The translations under genes and the position numbers were made by a program. A DNA stretch of 37,499 nucleotides from the NCBI RefSeq assembly GCF_002937075.1, contig NZ_NHSJ01000093.1, positions 1-37,499 of the forward strand, written 5' to 3'. The stretch is from Rhodoblastus sphagnicola. Its GTDB lineage: Bacteria; Pseudomonadota; Alphaproteobacteria; Rhizobiales; Beijerinckiaceae. The notes under the pieces were generated by a model. That model saw only the letters and a program-made list of their open reading frames with translations. It searched no databases and was not told where the DNA came from. Positions 18,822 to 37,499 of the stretch are shown here, piece by piece (position 1 is the first letter of the stretch; every line of letters starts with the position of its first letter).

Positions 18822-19083
18822 TGCGCCGGATCGGCGCATTCGGGTTCGCCGCGCCCGCCGGCTGTCGGGACCATGCGCGGAAGAATATAGTTTCCCTCTC
18901 GCCCTCAAAGCGACACAAAAGCGCGCGATTTCTGCGGGCCTCACGCTTCGGCTCGAAAACTTGCCTATTTTCACATGGCCGTCGCGCGTCCGCGATGTTA
19001 TAGCCGCTCGCATCTGGTCCATGCCTCGCCGAGCGCCGGGGGTTTTGTGTCGACCCGGATTTTCGTGTTGAAGGGAATGTTGG

Positions 19084-21486
19084 ATGCGCATGTTCGCCCG
19101 CTTTTTCGCCTTTCTGTTCGCGGCGGGCGCGATCGTCTTCATCATTGGCGCGATCGCCGTCGGCGGGCTGGTCTACACCTATTCCAAGGATCTGCCCGAC
19201 CACACCCAGTTGAAGGACTACGAACCGCCGGTGATGACGCGCGTCCACGCCGCCGACGGTTCGCTGGTCGCCGAATACGCCCACGAGCGGCGGCTTTACA
19301 TTCCCTCCAACGCCATTCCCAAGCTGGTGAAGGAAGCCTTCATCTCGGCCGAGGACAAGAATTTCTACAGCCATAACGGCATCGATCCGGAAGGCATGTT
19401 GCGCGCGGTCAAGGTGCTGCTCGAGGGCAACAAGCGCATGCAGGGCGCCTCCACCATCACCCAGCAGGTCGCGAAAAACTTCCTGCTGACGCCGGAGCGC
19501 TCGTTCGAGCGCAAGATCCAGGAGGCGCTGCTCAGCCTGCGCATCGAGCAGACCTACAGCAAGGACCGGATTCTCGAACTCTATCTCAACAAGATCAATC
19601 TCGGCTTCGGCTCTTATGGAATCGCGGCGGCGGCGCTGAACTATTTCGACAAGTCGGTGCAGGAGCTGACGCTGGCCGAGGCCGCCTATCTCGCCGGCCT
19701 GCCCAAGGCCCCCAACAATTACAATCCGTGGCGCAACCATGACGCCGCGCTGGAGCGCCGCAACTACGTCATCAACCGCATGGTCGAAAACGGCTATGTG
19801 GCGCGCGCCGACGGCGACGCCGCCAGGGCCGAGCCGCTGGTGGTGACGCCGCGCAATGTTTCCGCGAACTCCTTCGCCGCCGGCTATTTCGTCGAAGAAG
19901 TGCGCCGCGAGCTGAACGACCGCTACGGCGACAGAAAGCTCTACGAGGGCGGCCTGTCGGTGCGCACCACGCTCGACCCGAAAATGCAATTGATGGCGCG
20001 CAAGGCGCTGGTCGATGGTCTGGTGCGGTTCGACGAGGCCCACGGCTATCGCGGCCCCTACAAGCAGATCGCGATCGGCGGCGACTGGGGCCCGGCGCTC
20101 GCGGACGTGGCGCCGCTCGGCGATGTCACGCCCTGGCGGCTCGCCGTGGTGCTCGACGCGGGCGAGTCCGCGCTGCGCGTCGGCTTGCAGCCGGTCAAGG
20201 AAAAATCCGGCGAAGTCGGACGCAACCGCGAAACCGCGACGCTGTCGGCCGACAACGCCCGCTTCGTGCGCAAGCGGCTGAAACAGGCTTTCGCCGTCGG
20301 CGACGTGATCTTCGTCGAGCCGATCGAGGGCAAGCCCGGCCAGGTGCGGCTGCGGCAGATTCCGGAAATCTCCGGCGCCATCGTGGCGATGGACCCGTTC
20401 ACCGGCCGCGTCTTCGCCATGGTCGGCGGCTTCTCCTTCGACCAGTCCTCCTTCAACCGCGCCACCCAGGCGCAGCGCCAGCCCGGCTCGTCGTTCAAGC
20501 CGTTCGTTTACGCCACCGCGCTGGATAATGGCTACACCCCCTCCTCCATCCTGCAAGACGAGCCGATCACGATCACCCTGCCGAGCGGGGAAACGTGGAC
20601 TCCGGAAAATTTCGAGAAGGGCAATTACGGCTCGCACACTTTGCGCTACGGCATCGAGCATTCCAAGAACCTGATGACGGTTCGCCTCGCCCGCGACATC
20701 GGCATGCCCCTGATCGTCGAGACCGCGCGGCGCTTCGGCATTTATGACAATATGGCGCCGTACCTCTCGATGTCGCTCGGCGCCGGCGAAACCACGGTGA
20801 TGCGCATGGTCACCGGCTATTCGATGTTCGCCAATGGCGGCAAACAGATCAAGCCGACGTTGATCGACCGCATCCAGGACCGCTGGGGCCACACCATCTA
20901 TCGGCACGACGAGCGCGAATGCCTTGGCTGCGACGCGGATCGGTTCTCGCCCGACAACGAACCCAAGCTCGTGGACAAGAGCGAGCAGGTGCTCGACCCG
21001 CTCACCGCCTACCAGATCACCTCGATCATGGAAGGCGTGATCCAGCGCGGCACCGGCGTCAGCGTCAAGGACGTCGGCAAGCATCTCGCCGGCAAGACCG
21101 GCACCACCAACGACGCCAAGGATCTGTGGTTCATCGGCTATTCGCCCGATCTCGCGGTCGGCGTCTACATCGGCTATGACAAGCCGCGCTCGCTCGGCGA
21201 GGCCGCGCAGGCCGCGACCTATGCCGCGCCGATTTTCCGCGATTTCATGAAAATGGCGCTGGCCAGCAAGTCGGACACCCCGTTCCGCGTCCCGCCGGGA
21301 ATCAAGCTGATTTCGGTGGATGTGAGGAGCGGCCTGCGCTCGTCCGGCCAGGGATCGATCCTCGAGGCCTTCAAGCCCGGCACCGCGCCGCCCGACTCAT
21401 ACGCCGGCTCCGGCGGGGGCGGCGGCGGACGCGCCGAACCGGCCAACGACAGCCAGGTCGGCGGCGGAACCGGCGGACTTTACTGA
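19084..21486 (+). CDS. mrcA: Penicillin-binding protein 1A (bifunctional class A PBP)
   Basis: The protein has 800 residues. A short cytoplasmic tail and one transmembrane helix (~6-34, FARFFAFLFAAGAIVFIIGAI) anchor it; the rest is periplasmic. The glycosyltransferase domain (~55-230) shows Glu90 in the EDKNFYSHNGID motif and GASTITQQVAKNFLL. An OB-like insertion (~300-430) follows. The transpeptidase domain has nucleophile Ser469 in SSFK, SKN at ~527 and KTGTT from Lys671. The tail is Gly-rich (GGGGGG). It polymerises glycan strands and cross-links them. The gene starts 262 bp after the amidase; ATG 19084 lies just after another ATG out of frame at 19078 and the protein begins MRMFARFFAF as homologues do. 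In polar-growing Rhizobiales, PBP1A is the main elongation synthase, which fits with the scaffold gene at 29.9 kb. Confidence 0.96.
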   Translation: MRMFARFFAFLFAAGAIVFIIGAIAVGGLVYTYSKDLPDHTQLKDYEPPVMTRVHAADGSLVAEYAHERRLYIPSNAIPKLVKEAFISAEDKNFYSHNGIDPEGMLRAVKVLLEGNKRMQGASTITQQVAKNFLLTPERSFERKIQEALLSLRIEQTYSKDRILELYLNKINLGFGSYGIAAAALNYFDKSVQELTLAEAAYLAGLPKAPNNYNPWRNHDAALERRNYVINRMVENGYVARADGDAARAEPLVVTPRNVSANSFAAGYFVEEVRRELNDRYGDRKLYEGGLSVRTTLDPKMQLMARKALVDGLVRFDEAHGYRGPYKQIAIGGDWGPALADVAPLGDVTPWRLAVVLDAGESALRVGLQPVKEKSGEVGRNRETATLSADNARFVRKRLKQAFAVGDVIFVEPIEGKPGQVRLRQIPEISGAIVAMDPFTGRVFAMVGGFSFDQSSFNRATQAQRQPGSSFKPFVYATALDNGYTPSSILQDEPITITLPSGETWTPENFEKGNYGSHTLRYGIEHSKNLMTVRLARDIGMPLIVETARRFGIYDNMAPYLSMSLGAGETTVMRMVTGYSMFANGGKQIKPTLIDRIQDRWGHTIYRHDERECLGCDADRFSPDNEPKLVDKSEQVLDPLTAYQITSIMEGVIQRGTGVSVKDVGKHLAGKTGTTNDAKDLWFIGYSPDLAVGVYIGYDKPRSLGEAAQAATYAAPIFRDFMKMALASKSDTPFRVPPGIKLISVDVRSGLRSSGQGSILEAFKPGTAPPDSYAGSGGGGGGRAEPANDSQVGGGTGGLY

Positions 21487-21559: not shown

Positions 21560-21574
21560 TTCAGAGCCTGTTAA
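21560..21574 (+). promoter_or_regulatory. CtrA-like box before the chemoreceptor gene
   Basis: TTCA-GAGCCTG-TTAA followed by CCAT matches seven of eight conserved bases of TTAA-N7-TTAA, and TTAACCAT is the classical CtrA half-site wording. It lies about 75 bp before the MCP start. Chemotaxis and motility genes are frequent CtrA targets in alphaproteobacteria. Short sites like this arise by chance, so confidence is low. Confidence 0.35.
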
Positions 21575-21648
21575 CCATTCTCGCCCAGGTTGCGCCCATC
21601 TGATCGCGCCCGCCTTGCGGGTGCGCGACGCGCAGGTTTGGAGACGAC

Positions 21649-22905
21649 ATGGCCGGTTTGTTCCGCAAGACTCATGATCGCGTGGCGGAGATCGAGCGCG
21701 ATTTCTTCCATGTTTCTCCCGACGCGATCCTGACGATGGATGGCGAGCGGTTCATCGCTTGCAATGATGCGGCGGCGCGCATTTTCGGCCTGTCGAACAC
21801 GATCTCGGTCAAGACGATCACGCCCCAGATGATTTCGCCGCCGGCGCAGGCCGATGGCGAGGCCTCGCAGACCAAGTGCCTGCGCATGTTGCGGGAAGCC
21901 AGCGCCAAGGGATCGCACCGGTTCGACTGGCTGCATCAGCGCTCCAACGGCGAGGTCTTCCCGGCGCAGGTCACACTCATCCGGTCGCGCGTCGACCCCA
22001 ATGTGACTTACTGCTGCATCATCGATCTCACCGAGCGCGAAGGCAAGCGGCAGGCGCGCGAAAACGCCGTCGCCTCGCTCACCGACCGGTTCGACGGCGA
22101 CATCTCGCGCATGCTCGGAATCGTCAATCAGGTGGGAAACAGCATCGGCGACACCGCGCGAAAGCTGGCCGCCGAGGCGGAGCGGACGCGCGACCGCGCC
22201 GCCGCCGTGTCCGGGACCACCGCCGAAACAGCCGACAATGTGCGCAGCGTCGCCCAGGCCGCCGACGAACTGACCGCCTCGATCCGCGAGATCGCCACCC
22301 AGGTCGATCAATCGCGCAAATTCGCCGATCTCGCCACCGGCGACGCCAATGGCGCCAGCGCCAAGGTGCGCGGCCTCGCCGAAAGCTCGGCGCGCATCGG
22401 CGAAATCGTCAACATGATCAACGCCATCGCCAGCCAGACCAACCTGCTGGCGCTCAACGCCACCATCGAGGCGGCGCGGGCGGGCGAAGCCGGGCGCGGC
22501 TTCGCCGTCGTCGCCATCGAGGTCAAGCATCTCGCCAGCCAGACAGCCAAGGCCACCGAGGAGATCGGCAGCCAGATCAACGCCGTGCAAGCCGCGACCC
22601 ACGAGGCGGTGCTGGCCATGGACCAGATCAACGGGCGCATCGCCGAAATGAGCCATATCGCGGCGGTGATCGCCGCGGCGGTGGAAGAACAATCGGTTTC
22701 GACCGCCAATATCGCCCATAGCGTGCAGCGGGCCTCCGACGGCGCCGGCGCGGTGTCGCGGACCATCTCGGGCGTGTCCAATTCCGCCGACGAAACGCTC
22801 TCCGCCGCGCGGGAAGCCGCCGGCGCCATTTCGCGCATGGACACGGAAACCGGCCGCGTCTCCGGCATAGTCGGGGAGTTTCTGGCGGCGGTGCGCAAGA
22901 TCTGA
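21649..22905 (+). CDS. Soluble PAS-domain methyl-accepting chemotaxis protein
   Basis: The protein has 418 residues and no transmembrane segment or signal peptide, so this is a cytoplasmic chemoreceptor. A PAS sensory domain lies at ~15-130 ([30 protein letters not shown] ... [10 protein letters not shown]). A helical signalling domain of repeating heptads runs from ~145 to the end. The conserved hairpin tip at ~258-290 reads [34 protein letters not shown], close to the family consensus that docks CheA/CheW. The PAS domain could hold a flavin or haem for redox sensing as in aerotaxis receptors, but no diagnostic residue settles that. No che genes adjoin it in the window, so it must work with a chemotaxis cluster elsewhere. 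It is on the same strand as PBP1A, 162 bp after a GC hairpin. Confidence 0.93.
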
Positions 22906-22927
22906 GTCTTTCCGCGCACGCATGTCG

Positions 22928-23155
22928 CGGCCGTCTTCGACGGGCCAGCTTCTCAACTGAAGAGAGCGCGCTTTACAGCGCGCTGGCCCGTCTGCGACGC
23001 GCCAGCCTCTCGTTTGAAGAGTGCGCGCTTTACAGCGCGCTGGCCCGTCTGCGACGGGCCTGCCTCTCGATTGAAGAGTGCGCGCTTTACAGCGCGCAGG
23101 CCCGTCTGCGACGGGCCTGCCTCTCGATTGAAGAGTGCGCGCTTTACAGCGCGCT
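22928..23155. repeat. Four-copy 57-bp tandem repeat of triple hairpins
   Basis: Copies begin at 22928 (degenerate), 22985, 23042 and 23099, with exactly 57-bp spacing. Each unit contains three successive stem-loops: GGCCCGTC-TGC-GACGGGCC (8-bp stem in the cleanest copies), CTCT-CGATTGA-AGAG (4-bp stem), and GCGCGCT-TTAC-AGCGCGC (7-bp stem). The last two units are almost identical, the first two carry substitutions, some of them in stems. No open frame of gene-like composition crosses it. It fills nearly all of the spacer between the chemoreceptor stop and prfB. Confidence 0.92.
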
Positions 23156-23202
23156 TGCGCCCGCCTATGAACGGCGCTCCTCATTCATGATGGGAATCGC
23201 TC

Positions 23203-24334
23203 ATGCGCGCGGAAGCCGTGTCGCTTATAGAAGAGATCAAGCAGTCAGTCGGGCTGCTGAGGAGGCATCTTTGACGTCGATCAATCGACACGCCGCCTCG
23301 CTGAACTGAACGCCAAATCCGAACACCCGGATTTCTGGAACGACGCCGAAGCCGCGCAAAAACTGATGCGCGAGCGCACCGATCTCGAAGACCGGCTCGG
23401 CACGCTGAAAAAATTCGAAAACGACCTCGACGACGCCGTCACGCTGATTGAACTCGGCGAGATGGAGGACGACGAGTCCGTGCAGGACGAGGGCGTCGAG
23501 CAGCTCAAGACGCTCAAGAAGGAAGCCGAACGCCGCCAGGTCGAGGCCCTGCTTTCGGGCGAGGCCGACGCCAACGACACCTATATCGAAGTCCATTCCG
23601 GCGCCGGCGGCACCGAAAGCTGCGACTGGGCGCGCATGCTGCTGCGCATGTACACGCGCTGGGCCGAACGTCGAAAATTCAAGGTCGAGTTGATCGAGGA
23701 GACGTCGGGCGACGAGGCCGGCATCAAGTCGGCCACCCTGCTGATCAAGGGCCATAACGCCCATGGCTGGGCCAAGACCGAATCGGGCGTGCATCGTCTG
23801 GTGCGGATTTCGCCGTTCGATTCCAACGCCCGGCGCCATACGTCGTTTGCGTCGGCCTGGGTCTATCCGGTCGTGGACGACCGCATCGACATCCAGATCA
23901 ACGAAAGCGACTGCCGCATCGACACCTACCGCGCCTCCGGTTCCGGCGGCCAGCACATCAACAAGACCGATTCGGCCGTCCGCATCACCCATATCCCCTC
24001 GGGGATCGCCGTCGCCTGCCAGATGGAGCGCTCGCAGCACAAGAACCGGGCGACAGCCTGGAACATGCTGCGCGCCAGACTCTACGAGCAGGAACTCGAA
24101 CGGCGCCAGGCCGAGACCGACAAGCTCAACGCCGGCAAGTCCGACGTCGGCTGGGGCCACCAGATCCGCTCCTACGTGCTGCAACCCTACCAGATGGTCA
24201 AGGATCTGCGCACGGGCCTGGTTTCGGGCACGCCCGAGGACGTGCTCGACGGCGATCTCGACGCCTTCATGGAGGCGGCGCTGGCGCAGCGGGTCAACGG
24301 CGGCGGCCCGGACAGCGTCGAGGACGTGGATTAG
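23203..24334 (+). CDS. prfB: Peptide chain release factor 2, with programmed +1 frameshift
   Basis: Translation starts at ATG 23203, reads 23 codons to CTT (23269-23271), meets an in-frame TGA (23272-23274), and continues in the +1 frame from GAC at 23273 to the stop at 24334: join(23203..23271,23273..24334), 376 residues. The fused protein reads MRAEAVSLIEEIKQSVGLLRRHL then DVDQSTRRLAELN, the standard RF2 N-terminus. The codon-recognition tripeptide SPF is at 203-205 and the catalytic GGQ at 248-250, 45 residues apart as in E. coli RF2. RF2 releases peptides at UGA and UAA; scarcity of RF2 favours the shift, so the gene is autoregulated. An annotation starting at the internal GTG/ATG near 23366 would miss the first ~54 residues. 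This is not a pseudogene. Confidence 0.97.
23260..23275 (+). promoter_or_regulatory. prfB +1 frameshift signal
   Basis: AGGAGG-CAT-CTT-TGA-C: an internal Shine-Dalgarno sequence, one spacer codon, the slippery CTT and the UGA-C stop context. Spacing is identical to the E. coli site (AGGGGG-TAT-CTT-TGA-C). The peptidyl-tRNA slips from CUU to UUU, so GAC is read next. Confidence 0.97.
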
Positions 24335-26284: not shown

Positions 26285-26420
26285 GCAAGAGGTTCTAGCA
26301 GTCGGCGCGCCCAACTCCAACCATGCGACGAACGGCCCGGCCCTTCGGTCTTGCGCGCTTCGGCAAAAAGTCTAAATCTGGCGCTAGAAAAACAGGCGCC
26401 CCGGCGCCGCTGGAGTCACG

Positions 26421-27251
26421 ATGACCTTTATCGAAGCCGACGCCGACCCCCGGCGCAAGAGCGGCCAGATTCGTCTGCATGGGCCAGAAGCTTTCGAAGG
26501 CATGCGCAAAGCCGGCCAATTGGTGGCCGAAGCGCTCGACCTGATGGCGCAAGCCGCCCAGCCCGGCGTCACCACCAATGCGCTCGACAAGCTCGCCTAT
26601 GAATTCGCCATGGATCGCGGCGCCTATCCCGCCCCGCTCGACTATCGCGGTTACCGCAAGTCGATCTGCACCTCGATCAACCATGTGGTGTGCCATGGCA
26701 TTCCCGACGACAAGCCGCTGCGCGACGGCGACATCGTCAACATCGACGTGACCTACATTCTCGACGGCTGGCACGGCGATTCCAGCCGGATGTACTGCAT
26801 CGGCGAGGTTCCGCGCAAAGCGCTGCGACTGATCGAGGTCACCTACGAGGCCCTCATGCGCGGCATCGCCGTCGTCCGTCCCGGCGCCACCACCGGCGAC
26901 ATCGGCCTGGCCATCCAGAGCTTCGCCGAGGGCGAGCGCTGCGCGGTGGTGCGCGAATTCTGCGGCCACGGCCTGGGAAAACTGTTCCACGACGAGCCCA
27001 ACATTCTGCATTACGGGCAAAAAGGCCAGGGCGCGCCGCTGCGCGAGGGCATGTTCTTCACCATCGAGCCGATGATCAATCTCGGCAAGGCGCCGGTGAA
27101 GATCCTGTCCGACGGCTGGACCGCCGTCACGCGCGACCGCTCGCTGTCCGCCCAGTTCGAGCACGCCATTGGCGTGACCGCCGAGGGCTGCGAGATCTTC
27201 ACCACCTCGCCGAAAGGCCTGCACTGCCCGCCCTATGGACTCGCGGGATGA
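26421..27251 (+). CDS. map: Methionine aminopeptidase, type I
   Basis: The protein has 276 residues. It removes the initiator methionine from nascent proteins. All five metal ligands are present: Asp109 (NIDVTYIL), Asp120 (GDSSRMY), His183 ([13 protein letters not shown]), Glu216 (TIEPMIN) and Glu247 (FEHAIGV); spacings 11, 63, 33 and 31 equal those of E. coli MAP (Asp97, Asp108, His171, Glu204, Glu235). The 12-residue longer N-terminus ([20 protein letters not shown]) is typical of alphaproteobacteria and lacks the zinc-finger extension of other MAP classes. GGAG lies five bases ahead of the ATG. The stop overlaps the radC start as ATGA. Confidence 0.97.
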
Positions 27252-27940
27252 GCGAGAGTCCGGCGCCAGAAAATCTGAACGCCGGTCATCGCGAGCGCCT
27301 GCGCGAACGTTTCGTTCAGGGCGGCCCCGACGCCCTGCCCGATTACGAATTGCTGGAACTGCTGCTGTTTCGCGCCATTCCCCGGCGCGACGTCAAGCCG
27401 ATCGCCAAAACGCTGATCGCCAAGTTCGGCTCCTTCGCCGAAGTGGTCGCCGCCGCCCCGGCGCGGCTCAAGGAAGTCGATTATGTCGGCGATTCCGTGG
27501 TCGCCGATTTGAAAATCGTCGAGGCCGCCGCGCTGCGGTTGGCGCGCGAGAGCATGAAGAAGAAGCTCACGCTCGGCTCGTTCGCGCAGGTGCTCGACTA
27601 TTGCCGCTCGGCCATGGCTTTCCGCGAAACGGAAGAATTCCGCGTGCTGTTCCTCGACAAGAAGAACGGCCTGCTCGCCGACGAGGTGCAGGGGCGCGGC
27701 ACGGTGGACCACACCCCCGTCTATCCGCGCGAGATCGTGCGCCGGGCGCTGGAGCTGAACGCCAGCGCGGTGATTCTGGTGCATAACCACCCCTCGGGCG
27801 ATCCCACCCCCTCCTCCGCCGACATCATGATGACCGAGACCATCGTCAGCGTCGCCAAGCCGCTCGGCGTCAACGTCCACGACCATCTGATCATCGGCCG
27901 CAACGGCCACGCCAGTTTTCGCGCGCTCAAACTTTTTTGA
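27248..27940 (+). CDS. radC: RadC-family JAMM protein (UPF0758)
   Basis: The protein has 230 residues. An N-terminal helix-hairpin-helix-like region (~25-100: [26 protein letters not shown]) precedes a JAB/MPN domain with the JAMM metalloprotease motif His179-x-His181-x7-Ser189-x2-Asp192 in [14 protein letters not shown]. The historical name RadC implies DNA repair, but E. coli RadC has no proven repair role, and the biochemical function of the family is unsettled. The ATG at 27248 overlaps the map stop by ATGA, so the two are translationally coupled, a common pairing in Rhizobiales. Longer upstream frames into map are shadows. Confidence 0.93.
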
Positions 27941-27946
27941 GGTTTC

Positions 27947-28723
27947 ATGTCCCGGATGCAGATCGGCGCGACCGAGGTGAATTTCGTGCTGTCCGGCCCG
28001 GAGACGGCGCCGGTCGTCGTGCTGGCGCATCCGCTCGGGGCCGATCTGAGCGTTTTCGACGGCGTCGCCTCGGCCTTGCGCGACCGGTTTCAATGTCTGG
28101 CCTTCGACGCGCGCGGGCATGGCGGCAGTTGGAAGCCGCCGGGTCCATACACGCTCGCCGATCTCGGCGGCGATTTGCTGCGCCTGCTCGACGCGCTGGC
28201 GATCGAGCGCGCGCATTTCTGCGGCCTGTCGATGGGCGGCCTGCTCGGGCAATGGTTGCTGGTCAACGCGCCGCAACGGCTGGACAAGCTGGTTCTGGCC
28301 AATACGGCGGCTTGTCTGCCCGACGCGGCGGCCTGGGACGGACGCATCGCGGCGGTGCGGCAAGGGGGAGTCGCCGCGCTGACGCCGGGCATCGTGCCGC
28401 GCTGGTTGAGCGCGCCGTTTCGCGAGGCGCATCCCGACGTCGCGGCAGGGATCGCGGCCCTGCTCGACGCGTGCGACGCCGGCGGCTACGCCGGCTGCTG
28501 CGCCGCCCTGCGCGACGCCGATTTCCGCGAAATTCTGCCCGAGGCGGCGAAAAAGGACATTTTGGTCATCGTCGGGGAGGCCGACGGCTCGACGCCGCCG
28601 GCCATGGGCGAGGATCTGGCGCGCCTCGCTGGGGCGCGGCTGGCGCGGCTGGAGGCCGCCCATCTCTCCTGTGTCGAGGATGCGCCGGGTTTCGCGGCGC
28701 TGCTGCGCGATTTTTTTATTTAG
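27947..28723 (+). CDS. Alpha/beta hydrolase of the 3-oxoadipate enol-lactonase (PcaD) family
   Basis: The protein has 258 residues and starts 6 bp after the radC stop, probably the third gene of the map-radC unit. The alpha/beta-hydrolase triad is visible: Ser95 in GLSMGG, Asp213 in EADGSTPP and His239 in AAHLSC; the oxyanion region is LAHPLGADLSVFDGV. The sequence LAFDARGHGGS with PPGPYTLADLGGDLLRLLDAL resembles PcaD-type enol-lactonases of the beta-ketoadipate pathway. No other aromatic-degradation gene (pcaB, pcaC, pcaHG) is in the window, so the specific substrate assignment is only a family-level guess. Cytoplasmic, no signal peptide. Confidence 0.85.
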   Translation: MSRMQIGATEVNFVLSGPETAPVVVLAHPLGADLSVFDGVASALRDRFQCLAFDARGHGGSWKPPGPYTLADLGGDLLRLLDALAIERAHFCGLSMGGLLGQWLLVNAPQRLDKLVLANTAACLPDAAAWDGRIAAVRQGGVAALTPGIVPRWLSAPFREAHPDVAAGIAALLDACDAGGYAGCCAALRDADFREILPEAAKKDILVIVGEADGSTPPAMGEDLARLAGARLARLEAAHLSCVEDAPGFAALLRDFFI

Positions 28724-28733
28724 CGCCCTTCGG

Positions 28734-29021
28734 TCAATAGCAGACGCGGCGATAGACGATTTCGCCCCACGGGTTGACATAGCGCCTGGTGAAGCAGCCG
28801 CCGCCATAGACGAAGCGCGGGCCATAGCCCCAACCGCCGCCCCAATGGCCGCCACCCCAATGGCCGCCACCATGGTGGCCCCAGCCGCCGTGGCCGCCCC
28901 AGGGACCGCCGCCATGCGGACCGTGCGGGCCGAACGCCAGGGCGTTGGTCGGCGTGAAAACCGCGCCGGCGGCGGCAAGCGACAGGCCGGCGGCGAAGAT
29001 GAAAGTGCGAAGGTGAGACAT
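28734..29021 (-). CDS. Small secreted Gly/His/Trp-rich protein
   Basis: The protein has 95 residues from ATG 29021. The signal peptide MSHLRTFIFAAGLSLAAAGA plus VFTPTNALA ends near residue 29. The mature part is extremely rich in Gly, His and Trp, with tandem GGGHW units (HGGGHWGGGHWGGGWGYGP), and closes with a Cys-containing segment VYGGGCFTRRYVNPWGEIVYRRVCY. The two Cys could form a disulphide. Small periplasmic or surface proteins of this build are common in Rhizobiales and have no assigned role; the His repeats suggest metal binding but this is inference. A start at 29114 adds a Pro-rich stretch before the signal peptide and is rejected. It converges on the hydrolase gene with 10 bp between stops. 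Confidence 0.8.
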   Translation of the reverse strand: MSHLRTFIFAAGLSLAAAGAVFTPTNALAFGPHGPHGGGPWGGHGGWGHHGGGHWGGGHWGGGWGYGPRFVYGGGCFTRRYVNPWGEIVYRRVCY

Positions 29022-29881: not shown

Positions 29882-32800
29882 ATGTCCAATCCCAGCACGG
29901 CTCAGGATCCGGCGGCGGCGGCCTTGACGGCCATAGAGGACGCCCTCAAGCTGCACCCCGAACCCGACAGCAAGGCGGCGCCCGCCGGCGAAGCCCCGAA
30001 GGAAGCCGGCAAGGAAGCCGGCAAGCTGGAATTTGGACTGCCGACGGCGCGAGGCGTCGACCTCCGCGAGCCGCGCGCGCCGGATGTCGCGCTGGACGAC
30101 GGGCCGCGCGCGCCGCTGTCGCCGGAAAGCGCCCCCGCCAACGACGACCGCGCCTCCGTCGGCCAGTTGCTGCAAAGCATGCAGGCCAAGCCCGATTCCA
30201 CTTCCGTCACCGTGGCGGTGCTGGCCTCCGCGCTGTGGGCGGGGCTGTGGATCGGCTACGCCATCTTCACCAAGGGCGAGGTCTTCGCCGGCAACATCTT
30301 CAACCCGGCGGCGGCGCTGGCCGTGTTCGCCCTGATCGGCCCGGTGATCTTCTTCATCGCCATGGGGCTGGTGCTGCGCCGCTCCCAGGAAATGCGCCTG
30401 ACCGCCCGCTCGATGGCGGAAGCGGCGATCCGCCTCGCCGAGCCGGAAACCTTCGCCACCGAACATGTGGTGACGCTGAGCCAGGCCATCCGCCGCGAAG
30501 TCGCCTCCATGGGCGACGGCATCGAGCGGGCGCTGGCCCGCGCCGGCGAACTGGAGGGCATGGTGCGCGCCGAAGTCTCCTCGCTGGAGCGCACCTATGG
30601 CGAAAACGAGCGCCGCATCCGCGTGTTGCTCAACGAATTGTCCAGCGAGCGCGAATCGATCGTCGTCAACGCCGATCGCGTCTCCTCGGCGCTGACCTCG
30701 GCGCAGGCCGCGCTCACCGGCGAGTTGGAGGCCGCCACCACCTCGCTGGCCGCCCTGCTCGACCAGACCGGCGATCGCATCGCCAACGCCCTGGAGACCC
30801 GGGGCCTCGACGTGCAGAGCGCCTTCGCCCAGACCAGCGAAATGCTGATGTCGGATCTGGAGGGCCGCGCCCGCAACCTGCTGCAAAAGTTCGAGCAGCA
30901 TGGCGCGCAAACCGCGCAGGTGATCGACGCGCGCTCGAACGCGGCCGACGCCGCCCTTCGGCAGGCCTCGGACCAGTTCCTCGCCCGCATCCACGAAAAG
31001 ACCGGCCAGTTGGCCCATGAGCTGAACACGCATGGCGAACGGCTGGCGGCGCTGGTCGGCGCGCGCGGCGGCGAATTCGCGGCCGCCAGCCAGGCGGCGC
31101 TCGCGGACCTCACCGCCCGCGTCGAAGCCCTGCATGCCGTGGTCGGCGAAACCGCGCAGCGCACCGTCGAGGAATTCAGCCACCACGTCGAGACGCTCGG
31201 CCACACCTATACGGCGATCAGCCAGCAGACGGTCGAGGGCGTCGCCGGCCATGCCCAGTCCTTGCGCGAAAACTTCGTGGTCGCGGCGGACGAGACCCTG
31301 ACCGCCTTCGCCGGCCACACCCGCGCCTTCAACGAGACCTTCGCCCGCGCCGCCGGCGAGACCATCGAAGCGGTCGCCGGCCAGACCGAGGCCCTGCGCA
31401 CCGCGGTGGACAGCTCCACCCGCGAAGCGGTCGAGACCATCTCGGCCCGAACCGAAGCCCTGTGCGCCGCCGTCGACGGCTCCACCCGCAGCGCGGCGGA
31501 AACCATCACCGTCCAGACCGAAGCCTTGCGCGCCGCCGTCGACGGCTCCACCCGCGAGGCGGTGGAAACCATCACCGGCCAGACCGAGGCCTTGCGCTCA
31601 GCCGTTGACGGCTCGACCCGCGACGCGGCCGAAACCATCGTCGCCCGGACCGAAGCCCTGTGCGCCGCCGTCGAAGGCTCCGCGCGCGGCGCGACCGAAA
31701 CCATTGCCGCCAGGACCGAAGCTTTGCGCGCGGCCGTGGACGGCTCCACCCGCGAAGCGGCCGAAACCCTCGCCGCCAAGACCGACGAGCTCAACAGCAC
31801 GTTCGCGCGGGTGTCGGGCGCCACGACTGACAGCCTCGCCGCCCAGACCGCCCGGATCGAACAGGCCTTCCAGGCGCAGGCGCAACAGATCGAATCGAGC
31901 GTCGCCTCCGCCGCCGGACAGACCCTGGCGGCCTTCACCGACCAGACCAACGCCTTCCACGAGCAGTTCGGCGCCGCCGCCGGCGACACGCTCGCCGCCT
32001 TCGCCGGCCACGCCGAAGCCTTCCACGAGCAATTCGGCTCCACCGCGCAAAACACCATCGAGACCATCGCCGGTCATGGCGAGCGGCTCGAACACATGGT
32101 CGCCGCCGCGACGCAGGACCAGTTGGCGTCGCTCGCCGGCCACACCCAGTCGTTCCAGGCCCAGTTCAACGCCGCCGCCCAGCAGGTGGCCGACGCGATG
32201 CTGAGCCAGGGCGAGCAACTCGAAACCACGGTCGCCGCCGTCGCCCAGACCCATGCGGCGACGCTCGTCAGCCACACCCAGACCTTCGCCGACCAGTTCG
32301 GCGAACTTGAGCAGCGGTTCGAGGCTTCGGCCCGGCAGGCGGTGGACAGCGTGGCCAGCCGCGGCGAACAGTTGGAAACCACCGTCACCGCGGTCGCCCG
32401 CTCGTTCCAGGACCAGATCGGCGCCGCCGCCCAGCAGACCGTGGACGCCATTTCCGGCCACAGCGAAAGTCTGGAGGCCACCGTCGCCGCCGCCACCCAG
32501 AGCCATCTGGCCGCGCTCACCGGCCACACCGAAGCCTTCACCGAAAAATTCGGCCAACTTCAGGAGCGGTTCGGCGCTTCGGCCCAGCAGACGGTCGAGG
32601 CCATCGCCAGCCAGGGCGACCGGCTGGAATCCACGGTCGCGACCGTCACCCAGGGCCATCTGGCCGCGCTCGTCGGCCAAACCCAGGCGTTCCAGGACCA
32701 GTTCGGCGAATTCCAGGCGCAGTTCGGGACTTCGGCCCGCCAGACCGTCGAGAGCATCGCCAGCCACGGCCAACAGCTCGAAAGCGTGGTCGCCAGCGTC

Positions 32801-35800
32801 GCCCAAAGCCATCTGGCCGCGCTCGACGGCCATGCCGAAGCCTTCCAGGACAAGTTCAGCACGGTCGCCCATCAGGCCGTGGAGGCCATCTCCAGCCAGG
32901 GCCAGCAACTGGAAGCCGCGGTCGTCGCCGTCTCGCAACAGCATCTGTCGGCGCTCGCCAGCCAGACCGACGCCTTCGACGACAAGTTCGGCGAACTTCA
33001 GGCGCGGTTCGGGGCTGCGGCCCAGCAAACAGTCGAGGCCATCGCCTCGCATGGCGAACGGCTTGAGACCACCGTTTCCGGCCTCACCGAGCAGCATGTG
33101 GCGGCGCTGTCCGTCCATGCTGAAACCTTCCAGTCGCAATTCGCGCAAGCGACCGGCGACGTGATCGCCGACGCCGAACAGCGCGCCGCGCTGCTGCGCG
33201 AATCGCTCGAAGCCACCACAAGGACAGTGGGCGCGGCGCTGACCGACAGCACCGTCGCGGCGCAGACGCATTTCGAGGCGACCGCCGAGAGCACGCTCAA
33301 CGCCCTGCTGGCGCAGACGCAGGCGCTCGACAGCACGTTCGCGGCGCAGGCGGCGCAGGCTTCCGAAACGCTGGTGGTCCGGCTCGACGACGCCCAGTCC
33401 CGCTTCGCCCAGACCGCCTCCGAGGCGGTGGCCGCCATCGGAACCCACGGCGACCGCATCAACGAGACCCTGTCCGAGCGGCTCGACACGTTCGAACGGA
33501 CGCTTTCACGCGGCGGAGAAGACACCGCCAACAGCATTGGCCAGCACGCCGAGCGGCTGGCCCAGCAGATCTCCGCGAGCTTGCAGAGCTTCGAGAGCAA
33601 GGTGGAGACCGGCGTCACCGAAGCGCATTCGCGTCTCGGCCAGCACGCCGAGCGCCTCAACGCCGATTTCGTCGCCCAGTTGGCGGCGCTGGAAAACCTG
33701 CTGCGCGACGGCGGCGAAAGCTCGGCCGACCACATCCGCGCCCAGACCGAAGTCTTGCGCCAGACGCTGGCGGAAAACCTGCGCGCCTTCGAGGCCGTGC
33801 TGATCGAGCAGGGCGAGGGCGCGGTGGCGCGCATTGGCGGCCATTCGCAGCAACTCGGCGCCGCCATCGCCGAGCGCCTCGCCCTGGTCGAGACCACGTT
33901 GGGCGCCCATGGCGCCGCGCTGGACGCGCGCCTGGGCGAACGCGCCCAGGCCACGGCGGACCTGCTGGGCCAGCAGCTCGAACGTTTCGAAGTCGCCGCC
34001 TGGGAACGCACGCAGCAGGTGGTCCAGAGCATGGACGGCCTGATCGGCAAGGCCGACGCCGGGCTGTCGGCGCGCTCGCGCCAGCTCAACGACGCGCTGG
34101 CCGGACGCGCCATCGACATCGCCAAGGTTCTGGGCGAAGGCGGCCGCGAGGTCGGCAAGGCGCTCGACTCCAAGGCGCGCGAACTCGACGAGATCATCCT
34201 GCGCCGCTCCAGCGCGCTCACCGACGACCTCGCCGCCAAGGCGCGGGACATCGACACCACGCTCGGCCTGCGCGCCGAGGAAATCGCAGCCCATCTCGGC
34301 GGCCATATCGGCCAGTTCGAGGACAAGGTGGTCAACCGGCTCGCCGCCGTCGGCAGTGAAGTCTGGTCGCGGACCGAAGAGATCGACGCCGCGCTGGCGG
34401 CGCGCTCCACCCAGATGGTGGACACGCTCGGCGCCCAGATCGGCCGGTTCGAGGACAAGGTGGTCAGCCGCCTGACCGCGGCGGGCCGCGAGGTCTGGAC
34501 CAAGACCGGCGAAATCGATTCCGTGCTGGCCGCCCGCTCCGAGCAGATGGTCGCCCAGCTCGGCGCCCATGTCGAGAATTTCGAGGCCAGGGTCGTCGAA
34601 CACGCCGACCAGGCCGCCGGCCGGATCGGCGCCAAGGCGGACGAAGTCGAGGCGGCGCTCTCCACCCGCTCCGAGCAGATCGTCGCCCATCTCGGCGCCC
34701 ATGTCGAAGCCTTCGAGGACAAGGTCGTCAACCGCGCCGACGTGGCCGCCGGCAAGATCGTCGCGCAGGCCGGGGTCGCCGACGCGACCATCGCCGCCCG
34801 CTCCGAACGGATCGTCGAGCATCTCGGCGCCCATATCGCCGCCTTCGAGGACAAGGTGGTCGCCCGCGCCGACGAGGCCGCCGACAAGATCGCCGCGCGG
34901 GCCGACGCCGCCGACGCGACCATCGCCGCCCGCTCCGAACAGATCGTCGAACAGATGGCCGCCTTCGAGGACAAGGTGGTCGCCCGCGCCGACCAGGCCG
35001 CCGCCAAGATCGCCTCCAAGGCGGGCTTCGCCGAAGCCGCGCTCGCAGCCCGCTCCGAGCAGATCGCCGCCCATCTCGGCGCCCATGTCGAGGCGTTCGA
35101 GACCAAGGTGGTCGCCCGCGCCGACGAGGCCGCCAACAAGATCGCCGCCAGCGCCAGCGAAGCCGGAGCGGCGCTTGGCGCCCGCTCCGGGGACATCGTC
35201 GCCGCGCTCGGCGCCCATGTCGAGGCCTTCGAGGACAGGGTGGTCACCCGCGCCGACGAGGCCGCCAACAAGATCGCCGCCAAGGCCGACGCCGCCGAAG
35301 CGGCGCTCGCGGCGCGCTCCATGGAAATCGCCGCCCATCTCGACGCCCATGTCGGCGCTTTCGAGGAGAAGGTGATCGCCCGCGCCGAACAGGCGGCCGA
35401 CCGGATCGCGACGAAATCGAACGAGGCCGACGCGGCGCTCGCCGCCCGCTCCGGCGAGATCTCCGCCCATCTCGGCGCCCATGTCGAGGCCTTCGAGGAC
35501 AAGGTCGTCAACCGCGCCGACGAGGCCGCCAACAAGATCGCCGCGCGAGCGGGCGAGGCCGAAGCGGCGCTCGGCGCCCGCTCCGCCGAGTTCGCGGTCA
35601 GGATCGGCGCCCATATCGAGAACTTCGAGGACAGGATCATCGCCGGCGCCGGCGCGGCCGCCAGCACGATTGCGGCCAGGGCCAGCGAGGCCGAGGCGGC
35701 GCTCGCCGCCCGCTCCGCCGAAATTTCCGCCCATCTCGGCGGCCATGTCGAGGCCTTCGAGGACAAGGTCGTCCTGCGCGCCGACGAGGCCGCCAACAAG

Positions 35801-37499
35801 ATCGCCGCCAAGGCCAGCGAGGCCGAAGCGGCGCTCGGCGCCCGTTCCGACGAGATCGCCGCCCATCTCGGCGGCCATGTCCAGGCCTTCGAGCAAAAGG
35901 TGCTCGCGCGCGCCGACGAGGCCGCCAACCTGATCGCGGCGAAAGCCAACGAGACCGAAGCGGCGCTCGGCGCCCGCTCCGCCGAGATCTCCGCCAATCT
36001 CGCCGCCCATGTCGACGCCTTCGAGGAAAAGGTGGTCACCCGCGCCGACGTCGCCGCCGACCGGATCTCCGCCAAGGCCGACAAGGTCGATCAGGTGCTG
36101 TCGCTGCGCTCGGAGCAGGTGTCGGCCCATCTCGGCGGCCATGTCGAACTGTTCGAGGACAAGGTCATCAACCGCGTCGCGGCGGTCGTGGAAAAGGTCT
36201 CCGCCAGCGCCGAGGAGATCGATTCCAGGCTGCGCGCCCGCACCGAGCAGATGTCCGACGCCCTCGGGAGCCAGATCGGCGCCATCGAGGCGACGACCGG
36301 CGCCTTCGAGGACAAGGTCGTCAACCGCCTCGGCGAAATGGGCGAGGAGATCGACCGCCGCGTCGCGGCGCTCGCGGCCACGCTCGAAGGCGATGGACGC
36401 GGCCTGGCCGAAGACCTGCGCCTGCGCACCGAAGAGCTGCACGACTGGTACGATACGCGCGGCCTCAAGCTGATCGAACTGCTGGAGGAGCGGGGCGGCG
36501 AAGTCACCCAGCGCATCGCCGACTTCAGCCAGACCGCCGTGGGCGTGCTGCATGAGCGCTCGGGCGAACTCGTCACGGAACTCGGCCGCAAGCAGCAGGA
36601 AATGACCGAGGCGCTGTCCGAGATCAACGCCAGGATCAAGAAGGACGTGATCGGTCTGGTCGAGGCGATGGCCCAGTCGCACGGCGCCCTGCTCGGCGTG
36701 GTGGACAAGGCCGAAGGCAGCCTGCGGCGCTACGATTCGCAGCTCGGCGAGCGCCTCGGCGCCTTCACCGGCGCGGTCGACGCGCTCGACGGCGAAATCG
36801 ACCGGCTCGACAATGCGGCGCGCCAAGGCGCCGACTCGCTCGCGCAATCCGCGCGCGGCCTCAAATCGCAAAACACCGGCCTCGCGGACTCGCTCGAAGA
36901 AATGCGCAAGACGCAGGCCGAGATCGACACGGCGCTGGATGCGCGCCTGCAAAGCCTGCAAACGCTTTACGGCGAGGCGCAGCAGCGCCAGGACGCCTTC
37001 GAGCAGCGCCTCGAACGCTACGCCGCCTCGATCGGCAAGACGCTCGCCGAGGCGGAGGGCAAGGCCCGTGAAGTCGGCGGCTTCCTCACCGACGCCACGG
37101 CCGCGACGGCGGGCGCGATGACCAGCCAGTTCGACGCGCTGCGCGACGCCGCCGCGCGCGAGCGTGAAAACACCTCGGTCGCGCTGACCAGCGCCTATGA
37201 GCAGAACATGGGCGAGATGAACCATCTGTTCGCCCAGGCGACCGAGCGTTACAAGGCCGTTTCGCAGGAACTGCGCGGCATGGGCGCGGAGATCCAGCGC
37301 GAACTCGAAGCGACAAGGCAGGAGCTGCGGCGCGGCGCGCTGGAGCTGCCGCGCGAGACCTCGGAACAGGCGGCCGCCATGCGTCGCGTGATCGCCGAGC
37401 AGATCAAGGCGCTCAACGAGCTGACCGACATTGTCGCCCGCTCCGGCCGCGCCCTGGACATCGCCGAGGCCCCCGCCCGCCCCGAGGCGCGCGCCAGCC
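29882..37499 (+). CDS. Giant membrane-anchored apolipoprotein-like coiled-coil protein, GPR/RgsE-like (3' end outside window)
   Basis: The frame is open from ATG 29882 to the last base: at least 2,539 residues with no stop. Residues 1-105 are a disordered Ala/Pro/Glu-rich cytoplasmic segment. Two transmembrane helices follow (~108-128 VAVLASALWAGLWIGYAIF and ~142-165 AAALAVFALIGPVIFFIAMG), leaving the remainder on the same side as the N-terminus. From ~170 onwards it is almost pure Ala/Glu/Gln/Thr/Arg amphipathic helix with no Pro for long stretches. Three tandem repeat blocks lie at 500-631, 739-1063 and 1477-2132. The part after ~2145 is non-repetitive and ends in IAEQIKALNELTDIVARSG. Size, N-terminal anchor and apolipoprotein-like helix match the growth pole ring protein of Agrobacterium (about 2,100 residues) and RgsE of Sinorhizobium, scaffolds for unipolar growth. 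That homology is inference from architecture. Confidence 0.85.
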   Translation, partial: MSNPSTAQDPAAAALTAIEDALKLHPEPDSKAAPAGEAPKEAGKEAGKLEFGLPTARGVDLREPRAPDVALDDGPRAPLSPESAPANDDRASVGQLLQSMQAKPDSTSVTVAVLASALWAGLWIGYAIFTKGEVFAGNIFNPAAALAVFALIGPVIFFIAMGLVLRRSQEMRLTARSMAEAAIRLAEPETFATEHVVTLSQAIRREVASMGDGIERALARAGELEGMVRAEVSSLERTYGENERRIRVLLNELSSERESIVVNADRVSSALTSAQAALTGELEAATTSLAALLDQTGDRIANALETRGLDVQSAFAQTSEMLMSDLEGRARNLLQKFEQHGAQTAQVIDARSNAADAALRQASDQFLARIHEKTGQLAHELNTHGERLAALVGARGGEFAAASQAALADLTARVEALHAVVGETAQRTVEEFSHHVETLGHTYTAISQQTVEGVAGHAQSLRENFVVAADETLTAFAGHTRAFNETFARAAGETIEAVAGQTEALRTAVDSSTREAVETISARTEALCAAVDGSTRSAAETITVQTEALRAAVDGSTREAVETITGQTEALRSAVDGSTRDAAETIVARTEALCAAVEGSARGATETIAARTEALRAAVDGSTREAAETLAAKTDELNSTFARVSGATTDSLAAQTARIEQAFQAQAQQIESSVASAAGQTLAAFTDQTNAFHEQFGAAAGDTLAAFAGHAEAFHEQFGSTAQNTIETIAGHGERLEHMVAAATQDQLASLAGHTQSFQAQFNAAAQQVADAMLSQGEQLETTVAAVAQTHAATLVSHTQTFADQFGELEQRFEASARQAVDSVASRGEQLETTVTAVARSFQDQIGAAAQQTVDAISGHSESLEATVAAATQSHLAALTGHTEAFTEKFGQLQERFGASAQQTVEAIASQGDRLESTVATVTQGHLAALVGQTQAFQDQFGEFQAQFGTSARQTVESIASHGQQLESVVASVAQSHLAALDGHAEAFQDKFSTVAHQAVEAISSQGQQLEAAVVAVSQQHLSALASQTDAFDDKFGELQARFGAAAQQTVEAIASHGERLETTVSGLTEQHVAALSVHAETFQSQFAQATGDVIADAEQRAALLRESLEATTRTVGAALTDSTVAAQTHFEATAESTLNALLAQTQALDSTFAAQAAQASETLVVRLDDAQSRFAQTASEAVAAIGTHGDRINETLSERLDTFERTLSRGGEDTANSIGQHAERLAQQISASLQSFESKVETGVTEAHSRLGQHAERLNADFVAQLAALENLLRDGGESSADHIRAQTEVLRQTLAENLRAFEAVLIEQGEGAVARIGGHSQQLGAAIAERLALVETTLGAHGAALDARLGERAQATADLLGQQLERFEVAAWERTQQVVQSMDGLIGKADAGLSARSRQLNDALAGRAIDIAKVLGEGGREVGKALDSKARELDEIILRRSSALTDDLAAKARDIDTTLGLRAEEIAAHLGGHIGQFEDKVVNRLAAVGSEVWSRTEEIDAALAARSTQMVDTLGAQIGRFEDKVVSRLTAAGREVWTKTGEIDSVLAARSEQMVAQLGAHVENFEARVVEHADQAAGRIGAKADEVEAALSTRSEQIVAHLGAHVEAFEDKVVNRADVAAGKIVAQAGVADATIAARSERIVEHLGAHIAAFEDKVVARADEAADKIAARADAADATIAARSEQIVEQMAAFEDKVVARADQAAAKIASKAGFAEAALAARSEQIAAHLGAHVEAFETKVVARADEAANKIAASASEAGAALGARSGDIVAALGAHVEAFEDRVVTRADEAANKIAAKADAAEAALAARSMEIAAHLDAHVGAFEEKVIARAEQAADRIATKSNEADAALAARSGEISAHLGAHVEAFEDKVVNRADEAANKIAARAGEAEAALGARSAEFAVRIGAHIENFEDRIIAGAGAAASTIAARASEAEAALAARSAEISAHLGGHVEAFEDKVVLRADEAANKIAAKASEAEAALGARSDEIAAHLGGHVQAFEQKVLARADEAANLIAAKANETEAALGARSAEISANLAAHVDAFEEKVVTRADVAADRISAKADKVDQVLSLRSEQVSAHLGGHVELFEDKVINRVAAVVEKVSASAEEIDSRLRARTEQMSDALGSQIGAIEATTGAFEDKVVNRLGEMGEEIDRRVAALAATLEGDGRGLAEDLRLRTEELHDWYDTRGLKLIELLEERGGEVTQRIADFSQTAVGVLHERSGELVTELGRKQQEMTEALSEINARIKKDVIGLVEAMAQSHGALLGVVDKAEGSLRRYDSQLGERLGAFTGAVDALDGEIDRLDNAARQGADSLAQSARGLKSQNTGLADSLEEMRKTQAEIDTALDARLQSLQTLYGEAQQRQDAFEQRLERYAASIGKTLAEAEGKAREVGGFLTDATAATAGAMTSQFDALRDAAARERENTSVALTSAYEQNMGEMNHLFAQATERYKAVSQELRGMGAEIQRELEATRQELRRGALELPRETSEQAAAMRRVIAEQIKALNELTDIVARSGRALDIAEAPARPEARAS
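31379..31774 (+). repeat. Six 22-residue (66-bp) repeats in the giant coiled-coil gene
   Basis: Residues 500-631. Six contiguous units of 22 residues with the pattern (A/G/V)(R/Q)TEAL(R/C)(T/A/S)AV(D/E)(G/S)S(T/A)R(E/S/D/G)A(V/A/T)ETI, followed by a decaying seventh. Twenty-two equals two hendecads, the same unit length as apolipoprotein A repeats. Units 2-6 are highly similar at DNA level, suggesting recent expansion or gene conversion. Confidence 0.93.
32096..33070 (+). repeat. Seven variable-length repeats (44/51/33 residues) in the giant coiled-coil gene
   Basis: Residues 739-1063. Successive units have 44, 51, 33, 51, 51, 44 and 51 residues. Each runs from (T/V)VA.V.Q.HLAAL through H(T/A)(E/Q)AF and F(G/Q) to A..TVEAI...G..LE. 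The 51-residue units differ from the 44-residue ones by a seven-residue FGELQ-type insert; the 33-residue unit lacks eleven. All lengths are therefore 11n or 11n+7. Confidence 0.9.
34310..36277 (+). repeat. Fifteen 44-residue (132-bp) repeats in the giant coiled-coil gene
   Basis: Residues 1477-2132. Each unit begins xxFEDKVV.RADEAA.KIAA, continues EAEAAL.ARS(E/A)(Q/E)I, and ends AHLGAHV. Fourteen units are exactly 44 residues (spacing of GCCCAT codons is 132 bp from 35081 through 35213, 35345, 35477 and 35609). The fifth unit has 40 residues, having lost a GAHI-like block near 34950-34960. The first two and the last unit are the most diverged, so the array probably grew from the middle. Short-read assemblies could miscount the units. 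Confidence 0.95.

Follow-up and report, generated by a model that had tools for sequence, protein, structure and literature searches.

The window analysed here is a complete contig of Rhodoblastus sphagnicola (C93, 37,499 bp), from a genome of 5.09 Mb in 141 contigs that is 99% complete. Its far end is occupied by a giant open reading frame on the forward strand (29882..37498), which begins with an ATG and runs for 2,539 codons without meeting a stop before the contig ends, as the first-pass annotation had described. Upstream of the ATG just four further codons precede a stop, giving an open frame of 2,543 codons; the stop-free maximum in 200 dinucleotide-Markov windows of equal composition is 775 codons. 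GC at codon positions 1, 2 and 3 is 0.73, 0.49 and 0.89, and the differences to the orthologue of Rhodoblastus acidophilus DSM 137 amount to 0.147, 0.101 and 0.284 at the same positions. Because third-position GC is this high and the differences peak at third positions, the frame is confirmed as a real gene that is coding on the sense strand. Antisense frames of 1,330 and 1,030 codons are also open across it, and in R. acidophilus DSM 142 (L040) the antisense frame is open over the entire gene (2,979 codons), a trap for gene callers against which the earlier annotation had fairly warned. Such frames would suit a reading in which the opposite strand carries the real gene and the sense frame is its by-product, but substitutions peaking at sense third positions and a sense-strand protein homology that extends across the whole order leave this reading practically no probability, and we regard it as refuted. 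Five sizeable frames lie upstream of the giant gene on the reverse strand of the window (18721-21084, 21574-23184, 23240-24184, 26298-27224 and 27236-28978); none has a Pfam match at E<=1e-5, and they could be genes or shadows of opposite-strand genes.

The encoded protein consists of a membrane anchor, a very long predicted helical rod and a C-terminal domain. Residues 1-87 (29882..30142, +) lie outside the conserved N-terminal domain and are not in alignment A1; by eye they are Ala/Pro/Glu-rich. The conserved domain, residues 88-270 (30143..30691, +), was delimited by the A1 alignment, BLASTP to RgsE, hydropathy and a structural model, and comprises two membrane helices followed by the beginning of the rod. 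The two helices claimed in the first-pass annotation are found as hydrophobic segments at residues 111-129 and 134-164, and AlphaFold2 in single-sequence mode places helices at ~106-131 and 142-168; this model, based on one sequence and with a pTM of 0.37, was taken for helix boundaries only. The proline-free stretch that follows, residues 189-2489 (30446..37348, +), is 2,301 residues long and predicted to be helical, in line with the more than 2,300 residues of helix proposed before. The Pfam apolipoprotein family PF01442 matches it at E=4e-112 in 13 stretches, and the predicted helix matching this family exceeds 1,500 residues. The hydrophobic period of the rod peaks at 3.66, with a power of 9.27 at 3.667 vs 1.07 at 3.5, so that the rod is mostly an 11/3 hendecad and a heptad (3.5-period) coiled coil was rejected; of the earlier description as a coiled-coil gene, the long predicted helical rod stands and the heptad coiled coil does not. 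Tandem Repeats Finder detects three arrays on the coding strand, with units of 66 bp or 22 residues (6.2 copies, 31378..31785), 153 bp or 51 residues (2.9 copies, 32406..32845) and 132 bp or 44 residues (12.5 copies, 34525..36165). The C-proximal rod segment, ~residues 2111-2489 (36212..37348, +), has a period of 3.60, as in short relatives. The rod carries a net charge of -6.2 per 100 residues and a narrow hydrophobic stripe, with basic residues gathered at +60 to +120 degrees around the helix and acidic residues at 150 to 330 degrees. The last stretch before the contig end (37349..37498, +) holds the end of the rod and the start of a Pro/Ala-rich linker.

The DSM 137 protein extends 165 residues beyond the position that matches the end of the frame in the window. 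When its C-terminal domain was compared with the window's own genome, a single match was obtained at the start of another contig, C13 (bases 18-416), within a 139-residue open frame that ends in a stop codon (C13:3-422); the stop sought past position 37499 was thereby located. The gene thus appears to be split over two contigs, which we join by homology. Since the 2,539-codon frame would continue as the C-terminal domain on C13, the full protein is probably about 2,700 residues long, with ~26 linker residues between the two contigs missing from view, and the window would hold 2,539 of ~2,700 codons of a GPR/RgsE-family gene (29882..37498, +, assigned by the frame and its homology to RgsE) whose 3' end is cut off by the contig end. 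Past the stop, C13 carries a convergent gene that, judged from its translation, resembles a lytic transglycosylase; the DNA there is 82% identical to that which immediately follows the DSM 137 gene; no DNA-level match to this downstream gene was obtained in the compared stretches of DSM 142, R. acidophilus MO and L043. On the other side, ~5 kb of DNA upstream of the giant gene is collinear with DSM 137 at 82-86% identity.

A Pro-rich linker, seen in part, thus precedes a conserved C-terminal domain. This domain has no Pfam family above the cut-off (best E 0.046), its best match by sequence in the PDB has an E of 0.056, and five relatives from outside the order gave rod matches alone or none against Pfam. 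AlphaFold2 predicts it to be all-helical (mean pLDDT 79), and a Foldseek comparison of the model with the PDB returned 87 matches at E<=10, none of them at E<=0.001. A resemblance of the model to the RsbR N-terminal/stressosome domain or to globin sensors was set aside at a TM-score of <=0.41 and an E above 1. In GPR, as described in PMC8262873, a Pro-rich region (aa 1,890-2,000) likewise precedes an essential C terminus, where trimming just the last 10 residues is enough to harm function.

Both non-repeat ends of the protein are homologous to RgsE of Sinorhizobium meliloti, which we read from CP090106.1, where it is annotated as 'kinesin' and has 2,089 residues from the first Met. In pairwise BLASTP, the N-terminal domain is 43% identical (147 bits) and the C-terminal domain on C13 52% identical (134 bits). 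RgsE (SMc00190 in PMC7327166) has the same two-helix anchor domain, Pro-rich linker and C-terminal domain, and its rod is likewise a hendecad with a period of 3.65; it differs in length (2,089 vs ~2,700 residues), and the two rods align at only 22-23% identity, in two BLAST matches that overlap and lie in different registers. Its depletion disturbs growth and shape, it is 42% identical to GPR and contacts with TolQ, RgsA and RgsS have been reported, according to PMC7327166. GPR of Agrobacterium tumefaciens (Atu1348, 2,115 aa), which we compared by description and not by sequence, is also alike, with two N-terminal membrane domains, a Pro-rich region, an essential C terminus and PF01442 over ~75% of its length (PMC8262873); PF01442 also matches the rod here. 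The assignment to GPR/RgsE made in the first-pass annotation is upheld, on the RgsE side by homology and on the GPR side by description only. The nearest named relatives of the N-terminal region are those of R. acidophilus DSM 137 (86% identity), MO (84%) and DSM 142 (82%), whose proteins have 2,650, 2,905 and 2,956 residues; all three share the upstream DNA, and DSM 137 the downstream DNA as well, and the rod gaps among these orthologues are often multiples of 11. In a quick tree, the window protein groups with RgsE and apart from the short relatives, in a long clade with a modest SH-aLRT of 82 that also holds two shorter members (G077 and MAG42). The gene is thus supported, from its homologies, as an ordinary single-copy GPR/RgsE orthologue of its order. 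An unrelated coiled-coil protein (ZorA-like, SMC-like or a 'kinesin') could resemble GPR through low-complexity helix only, and one might point to the name given to the S. meliloti copy and to the sub-threshold matches that are all NCBIfam yields (ZorA_3 with 23.2 bits at a cut-off of 250, TraY with 27.2 at a cut-off of 210); the homology of both non-repeat ends to RgsE refutes this idea, which we consider to have a negligible chance. Membership in ZorA of the Zorya antiphage system was rejected on the same score.

Judged from profile matches, what identifies the family is its pair of end domains and not the variable rod. The N-terminal profile matches 242 of the 249 genomes sampled from the order and 214 of the 215 of good quality, and the host genome (G000) has exactly one match to each end-domain profile. 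We fetched 86 homologous loci with enough sequence to hold the gene. In 83 of them a single frame carries both end domains, the N-terminal one near its start and the C-terminal one at its end; 21 of these loci went into the N-terminal profile and 20 into the C-terminal one, each time together with the window sequence, and those match by construction. The three exceptions are L041, which meets a contig end, L076, with the C-terminal domain in another frame, and L110, which has no C-terminal match. The interruption of the L076 gene (G108) may stem from a sequencing error or mean that the gene is broken. In a sample of 190 Alphaproteobacteria genomes, the N-terminal profile matches 26, three of them in the host's own family, and a broader C-terminal profile (A4) matches 72, the same three included; in a phylum sample of 299 genomes, class members included, all 74 matches are in Alphaproteobacteria. 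The C-terminal domain is thus found, by profile, in other Alphaproteobacteria, mostly in what appear to be shorter proteins, and among 13 proteins that carry both end domains and were fetched from outside the order, 11 are 629-1,087 residues long. Two families of the class outside the order (f64 and f115) have 605-1,005-residue proteins with the C-terminal domain, a length that suits TipN. Length itself is no novelty of the window gene. The first-pass annotation had called it longer than GPR and RgsE, which it probably is (~2,700 vs 2,115 and 2,089 residues), but it is not exceptional in the order, where 153 of 203 measured MreB-negative genomes have frames of at least 1,500 codons, the longest reaching 2,940 codons, and fetched relatives reach 2,977 residues. 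Frame length was measured in 230 of the 242 genomes with an N-terminal match, and these counts include frames cut by contig ends or broken (e.g. G093, G108, G189 and G246).

The host genome has no MreB at E<=1e-20. This threshold matters, as at Pfam's own cut-off the MreB profile matches the genomes of 60 of 60 relatives; the three weak matches in the host genome are Hsp70, FtsA and an Hsp70-like protein, and weak matches in other genomes were assumed to be of the same kind. MreC was found in none of the 11 genomes of the genus, host included, and in 7 of the 8 MreB-positive genomes tested alongside (the exception is G036). The host is accordingly one in which no MreB/MreC Rod system was detected. 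Within the order, MreB is present at E<=1e-20 in 28 of 249 genomes, and 27 of these also have an N-terminal match, the exception being G161, which is 88% complete. All 27 have frames below 1,500 codons (558-1,498), some of them cut or broken. At 19 of the 20 MreB-positive loci that were read, both end domains lie in one frame of 868-1,489 residues, counted from the first Met or, if no Met lies upstream of the domain, from the frame start. Thus, for the family as defined here, RgsE-family proteins and MreB coexist, against the suggestion of mutual exclusion in PMC7327166, which reports that Rgs homologues were missing from MreB-positive species of the order. The RgsE search described there kept lengths within 50% of 2,089, and 8 of our 19 proteins from MreB-positive hosts fall under that limit; the length filter can therefore account for no more than part of the disagreement.

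Mutual exclusion does hold for the long form in the sample from the order, where frames of at least 1,500 codons occur in 0 of 27 MreB-positive vs 153 of 203 MreB-negative genomes. When the longest frame per family was taken (10 vs 40 families, which are not independent), a Mann-Whitney test gave p=0.001; several MreB-negative families stay short (e.g. f3, f4, f15, f31, f34 and f51). On the tree, a single clade together with G039 and G057 accounts for essentially all of the long form, and MreB changes state ten times, five of these changes being forced by well-supported branches. An independent-pairs test had five pairs to draw on where branches are well supported, a number that could not reach 0.05 in any case, and its median p was 1. 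Among MreB-positive genomes from outside the order, frames of at least 1,500 codons occur in 8 of 63, and MreB is present in all 13 outside genomes whose proteins with both end domains were fetched. That MreB loss caused the long rods is offered here as a hypothesis. In nine MreB-positive genomes (G066, G108, G143, G224, G124, G289, G422, G400 and G402) the GPR-family gene shares a contig with mreB at a distance of ~45-84 kb, and in other MreB-positive genomes it is far from mreB or on another contig; a loose linkage of the two is possible.

Rod indels between close relatives often come in multiples of 11. Of the 12 sister pairs aligned, nine share 50% identity or more, and in these nine a multiple of 11 is found for 16 of the 32 rod gaps that are 4 residues or longer (p=3e-9 against an expectation of 1/11), vs 3 of 29 for gaps elsewhere in the protein. 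The three pairs below 50% identity, excluded from this count as their rod alignments are less sure, have 33 of 72 such gaps by hand count (8/33, 15/24 and 10/15). Indels in multiples of 11 are also expected without selection, when repeats phased at 33 bp undergo unequal exchange. Longer rods have longer hydrophobic periods, with a Spearman coefficient of 0.83, uncorrected for kinship, over 84 rods (the window's and those of 83 loci, after three loci that lacked a usable C-terminal domain were skipped): rods below 700 residues have periods of 3.57-3.63 and those above 1,200 residues 3.61-3.665. In the 40 long rods of the order, the first 350 residues and the middle have a period of 3.66-3.665 and the last 350 a median of 3.595, and in 39 of the 40 the period of the last stretch is below that of the middle. 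The rod end was set at a fixed 60 residues before the C-terminal domain, and in some proteins the last stretch may take in part of the Pro-rich linker; segment 2110-2490 of the window protein, which is all rod, also gives a period of 3.60. Most simply, these periods would reflect an 11/3 array inserted between the anchor and a C-proximal segment of older origin. Two long rods from outside the order, L098 and L107, which are not among the 40, have periods of 3.57-3.625 throughout, and a long rod is therefore possible without an 11/3 period. In a partial literature search, we found no published report of the rod length series or the period shift, and no paper that joins hendecad repeats with bacterial apolipoprotein-type proteins.

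Taken with the homology of its ends, these features make it highly probable that the protein is a GPR/RgsE orthologue with a membrane-anchored hendecad rod, which would act as a scaffold at the growing pole of a cell without MreB/MreC. The two-helix anchor would fix the protein in the inner membrane and leave the rod on the cytoplasmic side, and rods may associate side by side via the narrow hydrophobic stripe and the pairing of an acidic with a basic flank. The assembly would sit at the growing pole, where the C-terminal domain could recruit or position envelope-synthesis partners in a cell that does without MreB and MreC, and rod length might drift as 11-residue units are gained and lost without disturbing the phase of the stripe. 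Polar growth of the host is indirectly supported, because no MreB or MreC was found and the type species of the genus was reportedly presented, in the title of its original description, as a budding bacterium.

Two other readings accept the homology and differ on what the protein does. An 11/3 period is also found in lipid-binding helices such as apolipoproteins, and it is conceivable, with a limited chance, that the rod lies flat on the membrane and organises lipid as an apolipoprotein-type helix and is not a self-associating scaffold. The match to PF01442 could equally reflect membrane binding, and the 11/3 periodicity of the rod points the same way, as does the role in lipid synthesis proposed for GPR in PMC8262873; judged from composition, an acidic rod with a narrow stripe and with basic vs acidic flanks would suit helix-helix packing better. 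It is improbable that the protein is a polarity landmark of the TipN type, marking the pole without driving polar growth. TipN of Caulobacter, with 882 aa, is called analogous to GPR in PMC13170164, and GPR is stated to resemble TipN in PMC8546619; our own comparison with TipN goes by these descriptions. The existence of short proteins with the same end domains outside the order, 11 of 13 of them with 629-1,087 residues and all 13 from genomes with MreB, agrees with such a role. In the tree, on the other hand, the window protein groups with RgsE, a protein whose loss by depletion upsets both growth and shape (PMC7327166), and no MreB or MreC was found in the host; both observations argue against a landmark of the TipN type. 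No paper covering both TipN and RgsE was found in a partial literature search.

The gene itself is of a known kind, and what is new here are the comparative points, namely the end domains, the period of the rod and the coexistence with MreB; the known GPR/RgsE system is extended to a Rhodoblastus purple bacterium. We tentatively propose a broader scheme, itself rather uncertain, in which GPR/RgsE would be an enlarged branch of an old alphaproteobacterial polarity family with an 'anchor - rod - C-terminal head' plan that originally worked alongside MreB. The presumed ancestral short forms are mostly ~630-1,100 residues long, with a rod period of 3.57-3.61. The Hyphomicrobiales rod might then have grown by 11/3-period units between the anchor and the old C-proximal segment, and the main long branch might have lost MreB, its rod taking over the scaffold role. 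If so, the addition of units of whole turns could make rod length an adjustable ruler for the polar ring. Should the length of the rod or the loss of MreB prove important, the enlargement of an existing polarity protein may be how polar growth arose. The testable points are a family defined by its ends, a rod made of an 11/3 array and an older segment of period 3.6, and a short form that coexists with MreB. The record from which RgsE was read, CP090106.1 (L037), is titled S. meliloti Ak57 'plasmid pSymB'; it is 3.72 Mb long, carries folP, petA, cytochrome bc1 genes and rgsE, and looks like a mislabelled main chromosome.
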